A stretch of 42,665 nucleotides of DNA from a virus. Position 1 is the first letter of the stretch; each line of letters opens with the position of its first letter. Made by a program: the position numbers and the translations under genes. The stretch covers positions 1 to 42,665 of the IMG/VR virus record IMGVR_UViG_3300021961_000201; one strand, 5' to 3'. This document shows, one piece after another, positions 14,536-16,454 of the stretch. The notes beneath the pieces were generated by a model, which saw only the letters and a list, made by a program, of their open reading frames with translations, had not been told where the DNA came from and ran no database searches.

Positions 14536-14724
14536 TTACTTTGCCCACCAGTTTAAATAAACTAGGTACGGCACTAAAATAGGATAAACAACGTGTTCTA
14601 TAACTTCATAGATAACTAATAAAGTTAATACGATTGCCCATACTTTAGATGTCTTTGCCTTTTCAGATATAGACGCAAACACCTTTGAATGAAACTGTCC
14701 TATTTTGGAAATAATTTTTTGCAT
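14536..14724 (-). CDS. Single-pass membrane protein, 62 aa
   Basis: A basic, amphipathic N-terminus of about 27 residues precedes a hydrophobic segment (about residues 28-58, WAIVLTLLVIYEVIEHVV and on) and a WWAK end. I recognise no family. There is no visible ribosome-binding site. A CATAAATA late box sits 5 nt before the ATG and a sigma70-type promoter just beyond it, so both transcripts would have very short or no leaders. A role at the host inner membrane is plausible but unproven. Confidence 0.65.
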   Translation of the reverse strand: MQKIISKIGQFHSKVFASISEKAKTSKVWAIVLTLLVIYEVIEHVVYPILVPYLVYLNWWAK

Positions 14725-14877: not shown

Positions 14878-15075
14878 CTACCAATTATTATTGGATTTTT
14901 GTATTATGTGTCCAAGAACACGGCCTTTATTAGAACCGTATTTAACAACATAACCTGATGTTCCACTACCATTAATTTCAACTTCTTTTCTGGCTTTCAA
15001 CAAGGTATTTACTTTTTTACTTTGTTCTTTTTCTTCAGAAAAAGTTTTTAATAGTTGTGTAAATCTTTCTATCAT
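14878..15075 (-). CDS. Small riboswitch-controlled protein, 65 aa
   Basis: A very strong ribosome-binding site (GGAGGG) lies 4-9 nt before the ATG at 15075. The N-terminal half (about residues 1-33) is helical and charged. The second half is GSGTSGYVVKYGSNKGRVLGH, a likely small beta unit. It is the gene directly behind a glutamine riboswitch aptamer and so fits the 'downstream peptide' arrangement known from cyanobacteria and cyanophages. The length equals that of cyanobacterial glutamine synthetase inactivating factor IF7, but I see no convincing sequence match. A role in nitrogen or glutamine control is inferred from the riboswitch alone. Confidence 0.75.
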   Translation of the reverse strand: MIERFTQLLKTFSEEKEQSKKVNTLLKARKEVEINGSGTSGYVVKYGSNKGRVLGHIIQKSNNNW

Positions 15076-15100
15076 ACACCCTCCTTTTATTTTAAGTTAG

Positions 15101-15150
15101 GTGCGTTCCTTCAGCATACGCTTACTTCCGACTCATAAGAGTTGAACGAT
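15101..15150 (-). promoter_or_regulatory. Glutamine riboswitch aptamer (glnA / Downstream-peptide type)
   Basis: The minus-strand RNA shows the conserved core. P1 pairs CGTTC (15148-15144) with GAACG (15108-15104). P2 is ACTC-TTAT-GAGT, followed by the conserved CGGAAGTA. P3 is AGC-GTAT-GCT, followed by GAAGGAACGC. These are the invariant elements I know from glutamine-binding riboswitches. It lies 26 nt before the ATG of the 65-aa gene. The GCACC at its 3' edge can pair with GGTGT next to the ribosome-binding site, a possible translational switch. Confidence 0.88.
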
Positions 15151-15156
15151 ATTAAG

Positions 15157-15164
15157 TATTTATA
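15157..15164 (-). promoter_or_regulatory. Late promoter TATAAATA feeding the riboswitch
   Basis: Exact TATAAATA on the minus strand, 8 nt before P1 of the aptamer. The predicted late start (near 15151) would place the transcript 5' end almost exactly at the riboswitch. Confidence 0.7.
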
Positions 15165-15213
15165 TCCGATATGCGTTAAACCAATATCTGATTCGCAAAA
15201 TACCAATACCTAT

Positions 15214-15242
15214 ATTATAATATTTTTTACAAAGAAAGTCAA
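15214..15242 (-). promoter_or_regulatory. Sigma70-type promoter feeding the riboswitch
   Basis: TTGACT (15242-15237), a 17-nt spacer and TATAAT (15219-15214), three bases after the isocitrate lyase stop. The transcript would carry about 58 nt of leader before the aptamer, including a possible hairpin between TTGCG and CGCA. Confidence 0.85.
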
Positions 15243-15245
15243 TAA

Positions 15246-16454
15246 CTAAAACTGTTCCTCTTCGGTACTTCCTTTAATTGCTTGTGTTGATTCGTTTCCT
15301 AGAAGTGTTGATATTGCGTCAAAATATGAAGCACCCACTTCTCGTTGATGTTTTACTGCTGTATAACCTTCACTCTCAGCTTTAAACTCATCTTCTTGTA
15401 ATTTAGAATAAGCTAACATACCGTCTTTACTGTATTCTTTTGCAAGTTTAAATGTAGCATAGTTTTGTAAATGAAAACCAGCAAGAGTTATAAAGTGAAA
15501 CTTATAACCAAAGTTTGCAATAGTCTTTTGAAAGTTTAGTATCTCATCATCACTTAAATGTTTCTTCCAGTTAAAAGATGGACTACAATTATAAGCCAAC
15601 ATCTTACCTGGAAACTTAGCGTGAATAGCATCTGCAAATCTTTTTGCCTCATCTATATTTGGTTTATCTGTTTCACACCAAATTAAATCGGCATAAGGTG
15701 CATATGCAAGGCCTCTACTGATTGCCTGATCTAATCCATTCTTTACATAATAAAAACCTTCTGGTGATCTTTCACCAGTTAAAAAAGGTTTATCGTTTTC
15801 ATCAATATCGTTTGTTAATAACTTGGCAGCATTAGCGTCTGTTCTTGCACATATCACTAATGGCACTTCGCATATGTCAGCAGCCAATCTTGCTGCTTTT
15901 AAATTTCGTATTGCGTGTGATGTAGGTATTAAAACTTTACCACCCATATGTCCACACTTCTTTTCACTTGCTAATTGATCTTCAAAGTGAACACCAGCAG
16001 CACCTGCTTTGATAAATCGTTTTGTTAATTCAAATACGTTTAATGGTCCACCAAAGCCCGCCTCACCGTCAGCGATGATAGGCATTTTGTAATCTGTTAA
16101 ATGTCTAGGATTTAACTTACCTTCGCAAAATTCTAAATGTTGTACTTGATCTGCTCTCATTAAAGCATTAATCATCTTCTCTACTAATAAAGGTGCAGAA
16201 TCTACTGGATATAAAGATTGATCTGGATACATTTGACCAGCACTATTGTTATCTGCTGCGACTTGCCAACCTGAAAGATAAATTGCTTTTAATCCTGCCT
16301 TTGCGTGTTGAACGGCCTGATTACCTGATAAACTTCCTAATGTATTGACATAAGAATTATCTTGTAATAAATCTCTTAATTTTTGTGATAATTCTTTTGA
16401 TACTGAATAATCAACTTTAAATGTTCCTTTTAATTTATCAATCTCCTTACTCAT
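15246..16454 (-). CDS. aceA: Isocitrate lyase (auxiliary metabolic gene)
   Basis: Isocitrate lyase splits isocitrate into glyoxylate and succinate, the first step of the glyoxylate shunt. The 402-aa protein is full length and has all family landmarks: SGWQVAAD at 61-68, ADGEAGFGG at 128-136, GVHFEDQ at 154-160, the catalytic signature KKCGHMGG at 165-172, NCSPSFNW at 289-296, FITLAGFH at 321-328, and the closing KHQREVGASYFDAI at 368-381. The NCSPSFNW segment and the length separate it from methylisocitrate lyase. No catalytic residue is missing. It lies one base after a 59-aa gene with a good TTAGGAG ribosome-binding site, and codon use is AT-rich like its neighbours. Malate synthase is not in the window. 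Confidence 0.96.
   Translation of the reverse strand: MSKEIDKLKGTFKVDYSVSKELSQKLRDLLQDNSYVNTLGSLSGNQAVQHAKAGLKAIYLSGWQVAADNNSAGQMYPDQSLYPVDSAPLLVEKMINALMRADQVQHLEFCEGKLNPRHLTDYKMPIIADGEAGFGGPLNVFELTKRFIKAGAAGVHFEDQLASEKKCGHMGGKVLIPTSHAIRNLKAARLAADICEVPLVICARTDANAAKLLTNDIDENDKPFLTGERSPEGFYYVKNGLDQAISRGLAYAPYADLIWCETDKPNIDEAKRFADAIHAKFPGKMLAYNCSPSFNWKKHLSDDEILNFQKTIANFGYKFHFITLAGFHLQNYATFKLAKEYSKDGMLAYSKLQEDEFKAESEGYTAVKHQREVGASYFDAISTLLGNESTQAIKGSTEEEQF

Follow-up and report, generated by a model that had tools for sequence, protein, structure and literature searches.

Which gene would a phage place under the control of glutamine, and in which phase of infection? This question is raised by a 42,665-nt viral contig (IMG/VR record IMGVR_UViG_3300021961_000201, analyzed over its whole length and hereafter called the window), in which a sequence-only reading had placed a glutamine riboswitch, fed by an early and a late promoter, ahead of a 65-aa gene. 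Riboswitches have been described as rare in phages (PMC9004378), and a survey of pelagimyophages found none (PMC7029224); phage glutamine riboswitches as such have already been published (PMC9004378, PMC9602691, PMC9964418).

The clamp loader encoded in the window shares 77% identity with its counterpart in Pelagibacter phage Mosig EXVC030M and 67% with the one in HTVC008M, and because of this resemblance we regard the window as DNA of a T4-like phage akin to the SAR11 phages. The promoters, the aptamer, and the 65-aa gene all lie on the minus strand, and their coordinates are summarized in Table 1. Just upstream of the riboswitch element is an isocitrate lyase gene (15246-16454, minus strand; Pfam ICL, E 2.3e-100), which was rejected as a riboswitch target, since it sits 5′ of the element. 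It had no homologue among the named marine phage records. In viral contig L369, the isocitrate lyase is 97% identical and the promoter-aptamer-gene layout is common to both, with an aptamer and a small protein that differ from those of the window, while in contig L370 the enzyme is 75% identical and the layout is absent.

TABLE 1 Features of the riboswitch leader and its gene, in window coordinates
Feature	Position	Strand	Basis or remark
Sigma70-type promoter TTGACT-17-TATAAT, putative early	15214..15242	-	11/12 consensus positions
Inverted repeat GATATTGGTTTAACGCATATC, just ahead of late promoter	15168..15188	.	Pattern match
T4-type late promoter TATAAATA	15157..15164	-	Box kept at same position in relatives
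Glutamine riboswitch aptamer	15100..15150	-	RF01739; P1 begins at 15148; stems supported in relatives
GCACCU, anti-RBS strand	15099..15104	-	Pairs with 15081-15076; overlaps P1 closing base
Shine-Dalgarno AGGAGG	15080..15085	-	Read from sequence
GGGUGU, partner of GCACCU	15076..15081	-	Covers 3′ end of Shine-Dalgarno site
65-aa gene of phrog_32989	14878..15075	-	PHROG match, E 8.3e-12

The leader carries an intact type 1 glutamine aptamer

The sequence-only reading had described the element as a textbook glutamine aptamer preceding a 65-aa gene and had proposed a search with both the glnA (RF01739) and the Downstream-peptide (RF01704) models. When the whole window was searched with cmscan, the sole Rfam match was to RF01739 (Glutamine), which was covered at full length (1-53/53) with 66.7 bits and an E value of 8.9e-13, against a gathering cut-off of 35 bits, and RF01704 gave no match at gathering score. 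The description of the aptamer was thus borne out, as was the presence of the ORF behind it, and only one of the two models applied.

All conserved aptamer positions are intact in the window copy. Compensatory changes keep stems P1 to P3 in relatives: P2 and P3 covary, being paired in 82% and 89% of distinct phage aptamers versus 55% and 45% after shuffling, and P1 occurs in complementary variants (CGTTG/CAACG and CGTTT/AAACG). The 3′ end of the aptamer, GCACC, is followed by UAACUUAAAAUAAAAGGAGGGUGUAUG and then by the ORF, the start codon of which lies about 25 nt from the aptamer. By covariance model the element is a type 1 glutamine aptamer, and its sequence suggests that the window copy binds glutamine.

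A late promoter is kept just upstream of the aptamer

At T4-type late promoters, transcription starts 6 nt past the box. By this spacing, the late start in the window should fall near 15151, about 3 nt ahead of P1 (15148), in agreement with the claim that it lies almost exactly at P1. The arrangement recurs: a TAAATA-type late box was present upstream of the aptamer in 47 of 47 distinct riboswitch loci of this family whose upstream sequence was long enough, compared with 9 of 183 control windows of equal size. The box reads TATAAATA in 28 of these loci, ACTAAATA in 9, GCTAAATA in 6, and GATAAATA and CATAAATA in 2 each, and it begins 13 to 20 nt ahead of P1, mostly 14 to 17. When 132 loci were pooled irrespective of gene type, TAAATA clustered 11 to 15 nt ahead of P1 and was rare elsewhere; outside the gene family, 41 of 86 other loci had the box. 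The total of TATAAATA sites in the window (nine) is not above chance, but their strand bias is notable, as all are on the minus (coding) strand.

The TTGACT-17-TATAAT promoter named in the sequence-only reading was found as well. Sigma70-type promoters with 11 to 12 of 12 matches were detected in 7 of 43 gene-family loci, where about 0.3% is expected per sequence, and the distance of such near-consensus sites varies between loci; most relatives have the late promoter only. The proposal that glutamine is sensed in both phases of infection is supported only in part, since the presence of near-consensus early promoters in just 7 of 43 relatives indicates that dual-phase sensing is no general trait.

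Many relatives carry, upstream of the late box, inverted repeats longer than that of the window, for example, ATCTGGTATG..CATACCAGAT and ACGTGCTATG..CATAGCACGT. The arms of these long versions covary, and they are common to two different peptide families. The repeat may serve as an operator or form a hairpin in early RNA.

A covarying helix links the aptamer to the ribosome-binding site

The 3′ edge of the aptamer, GCACC (15104-15100), is complementary to GGTGT (15080-15076), a pairing that had been proposed as a translational switch. With the flanking bases, the helix becomes GCACCU/GGGUGU, and it is included in the minimum-energy fold of the leader. Across leaders, the two strands change in a coordinated manner, as in GCACCU/GGGUGU, GCACUU/GAGUGU, GCACUUU/GAAGUGU, and GCAUCUUU/GGAGAUGU, and further in CAAUCUU/GAGAUUG, GCGCCU/AGGUGC, GCACU/AGUGU, and GCAUC/GAUGU. 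Over 82 distinct leader pairs, the anti-RBS duplex averaged -6.65 kcal/mol versus -5.34 ± 0.13 kcal/mol for shuffled partners, the lowest mean in 300 shuffles being -5.75. Such a helix was absent from some leaders that precede other peptides (14 of 136). The interval between aptamer and start codon had a median of 27 nt in the loci. The covariation and the energy difference argue for the proposed pairing. No intrinsic terminator was found between the aptamer and the gene in the window, and transcriptional attenuation was rejected for this reason.

The first G of the anti-RBS strand closes P1, and the CA that follows is also conserved as part of the aptamer. Sharing of these bases should make ligand binding incompatible with masking of the ribosome site, and this mutual exclusion predicts an ON switch. 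The platform is tied to the ligand state at the level of sequence only, by a covarying anti-RBS helix that overlaps P1. The predicted direction agrees with that of the type 1 and type 2 glutamine riboswitches of cyanobacteria, which activate expression (PMC6316151).

The 65-aa gene is under selection and occurs with and without the riboswitch

A query with the single protein led to 20 contigs, none of which had a riboswitch, and the riboswitch-bearing branch was reached subsequently by a profile query of viral contigs, which gave 432 relatives of the 65-aa protein, 80 of which were kept. Among the 47 distinct proteins from these 80 (a set different from the 47 late-promoter loci and equal in size by coincidence), 25 had a strict aptamer immediately upstream. 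The other 22, inspected by eye, comprised five with changed aptamers (L151 and L192 with CGTTG/CAACG, L199 and L215 with CGTTT/AAACG, and L208), one with the 3′ half only (L189), and about 16 without an aptamer. Likewise, no riboswitch was found next to the homologues in HTVC019P, HTVC011P, HTVC027P, HTVC168P, HTVC106P, HTVC024P, Kolga, MedDCM-OCT-S46-C10, and HTVC008M. The riboswitch is thus common in front of this gene yet not essential, and the protein can work without it, given that about 16 of 47 distinct homologues and the pelagiphage isolates have none.

The family matched phrog_32989 in 40 of 41 relatives and is under purifying selection (pN/pS 0.33). The 65-aa protein had no Pfam match to DUF4278, a domain tied to cyanobacterial glutamine riboswitches (PMC6316151), and is unrelated by Pfam to the glutamine synthetase inactivating factors. 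The N-terminal domain of the RnlA toxin (PF19417) was rejected, as it scored 16.9 bits against a cut-off of 24 and in only 1 of 41 members. In the AlphaFold model (mean pLDDT 67, pTM 0.34), only a long N-terminal helix was confident. Our guess is that this small protein acts as a modulator, either of nitrogen metabolism in the host or of phage assembly late in infection. A second late box (14862-14855, minus strand) lies just past the gene and is followed by hairpin-rich noncoding sequence, and a second TTGACT-17-TATAAT (14770-14742, minus strand) lies ahead of a 62-aa gene (14536-14724).

Glutamine aptamers precede small genes in many phages

Two aptamer pattern scans of viral contigs each returned at least 120 stretches. 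Among the matches listed, the majority of the aptamers read precede short genes, and 179 of 206 aptamer sites read (136 distinct) have a small ORF and a ribosome site within 70 nt; since the loci were gathered with strict patterns from lower-bound counts and related contigs are not independent observations, these frequencies are not population estimates. The tiny ORF families behind the phage aptamers (L001 to L120) are many and unrelated, 26 to 54 aa long, and rich in basic and aromatic residues. In sorted peptide types with enough close pairs, pN/pS was 0.05 to 0.33, which indicates that these types are coding. Two peptide types resemble DUF4278, one of them above the Pfam cut-off, and eight non-YRG tiny ORF families tested had no Pfam or PHROG match. 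Tandem glutamine aptamers ahead of tiny ORFs were seen in six phage contigs (L014, L018, L056, L101, L107, and L110).

Among isolates, Mosig has an RF01739 aptamer, located by the covariance model, with a late box and an annotated 51-aa gene. A blastn search of isolate phages with the bare aptamer returned Melnitz plus chance matches only and was too insensitive. The Melnitz riboswitch has been published as controlling tmRNA (PMC9004378). Behind it we found an unannotated 32-aa ORF, MTLYQQWCYLKAQKEYRRRQKILMYFRIRLKG (L231:2499-2694; MZ577097.1, about 46398-46593), with a ribosome site, the complementary strands GCACUU/GAGUGU, and a start 27 nt past the matched aptamer stretch; it resembles peptides in L040, L075, and L120. 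The Melnitz aptamer overlaps the end of the predicted tmRNA. Judged from these sequence features, the 32-aa ORF is a likelier target of the Melnitz riboswitch than the tmRNA.

Glutamine aptamers occur in marine bacteria other than cyanobacteria

A 2018 review described glutamine riboswitches as restricted to cyanobacteria (PMC6316151). Among the matches listed for the aptamer pattern in bacterial genomes, we found SAR116, Pelagibacteraceae, and SAR86 in addition to cyanobacteria, and these records show a range wider than cyanobacteria. The SAR116, SAR86, and Pelagibacteraceae copies (L250 to L368) often have tandem aptamers, and the sampled downstream genes encode a marine-type ammonium transporter (amt), GlnA (glnA), GlnII (glnII), and glutamate synthase (gltB). 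The phage-type gene itself was seen in one Pelagibacteraceae record (L298), possibly because a phage contig was binned with it.

Proposed mechanism and alternatives

We consider it probable, from the aptamer, platform, and promoter sequences, that a type 1 glutamine riboswitch here turns on, when glutamine is bound, the translation of a small phage protein encoded on a late transcript. RNA synthesis from the T4-type late promoter would start about 3 nt upstream of P1 and would yield an mRNA composed of the aptamer, a spacer of about 25 nt, and the gene. Without glutamine, GCACCU would pair with GGGUGU, a stretch that takes in the last part of the Shine-Dalgarno site and everything from there to the start codon, whereas with glutamine bound, P1 would close, GCACCU would stay within the aptamer, and the ribosome site would be free. 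In the window phage, both promoters are probably used, the sigma70-type promoter feeding the leader before the late phase. The promoter-switch-gene layout recurs in dozens of related marine phage sequences, and in nine relatives the module also occupies an equivalent genomic position. For this reason we reasoned that phages with this layout probably adjust a late protein to the nitrogen status of the infected cell.

The switch could instead turn the gene off at high glutamine, as expected for nitrogen-assimilation genes of heterotrophs, and feedback repression would be sensible for the ammonium transporter, glutamine synthetase, and glutamate synthase genes that follow the marine proteobacterial copies. 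The sampled bacterial leaders are, however, longer and different, the cyanobacterial examples are ON switches (PMC6316151), and the anti-RBS strand and P1 are mutually exclusive and covarying, which favors ON; we hold an OFF switch to be unlikely. It is very improbable that the element controls the sliding clamp and clamp loader genes downstream, with the 65-aa gene merely a leader gene. The small gene does precede this block in the window and in nine relative contigs, but the platform is local and translational, the gene is followed by a 153-nt gap that holds a separate late box, and by a second TTGACT-17-TATAAT, and the clamp block was not seen nearby in most other riboswitch contigs of the family, in addition to which the 65-aa protein is under selection. 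Least credible of all is a relic aptamer kept by descent after glutamine sensing was lost in the window phage: some relatives have indeed lost the aptamer or, like L189, keep half of it, yet the window copy has every conserved position intact at 66.7 bits, the stems covary in phage copies, and the promoter spacing is kept.

Significance and relation to known glutamine riboswitches

A literature search, which covered few subscription papers, found no paper describing the late-promoter arrangement, pelagiphage-like small-gene targets, or the covarying platform. What appears new is the recurring combination of a late promoter, an aptamer, and an orphan small gene with a covarying expression platform, together with the 32-aa ORF that had gone unannotated downstream of the published Melnitz riboswitch. 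With at least 120 matches per scan and most aptamers read lying before short genes, these data suggest a direct link between cellular glutamine and the output of a late gene in phages that abound in the ocean. A bolder and rather doubtful extension is that marine T4-like phages share a portable late cassette (late promoter, glutamine ON riboswitch, and small orphan gene), the many unrelated proteins of which all act on nitrogen metabolism in the infected cell; if true, the cassette would be to these phages what the glutamine synthetase inactivating factors are to cyanobacteria. Mosig and the host Pelagibacter HTCC1062 are both cultured and carry a related module, which makes the idea testable.

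Compared with the type 1 riboswitch (glnA motif, RF01739) of the Synechocystis gifB leader, the window copy shares all conserved aptamer positions, and both form the 5′ leader of a small-protein gene; ON behavior is reported for gifB (PMC6316151) and predicted here. Unlike gifB, the phage gene is unrelated by Pfam to DUF4278 or the inactivating factors, and a T4-type late promoter is predicted to start transcription at P1. RF01739 is common to the window, Melnitz, and Mosig (PMC9004378), T4-like phages with streamlined marine bacteria as hosts. The late box and small gene are common to the window and Mosig. Melnitz was read as controlling tmRNA, but in the window, and probably in Melnitz as well, the riboswitch acts on a small protein gene; the peptide families differ. 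Type 2 glutamine aptamers (Downstream-peptide, RF01704) also precede short genes (PMC2864571), but their model did not match the window at gathering score. Finally, the TATAAATA box lies on the coding strand here as it does in the T4-type late promoters of cyanophages and pelagiphages, and in the window it is placed such that the RNA would begin with the riboswitch.
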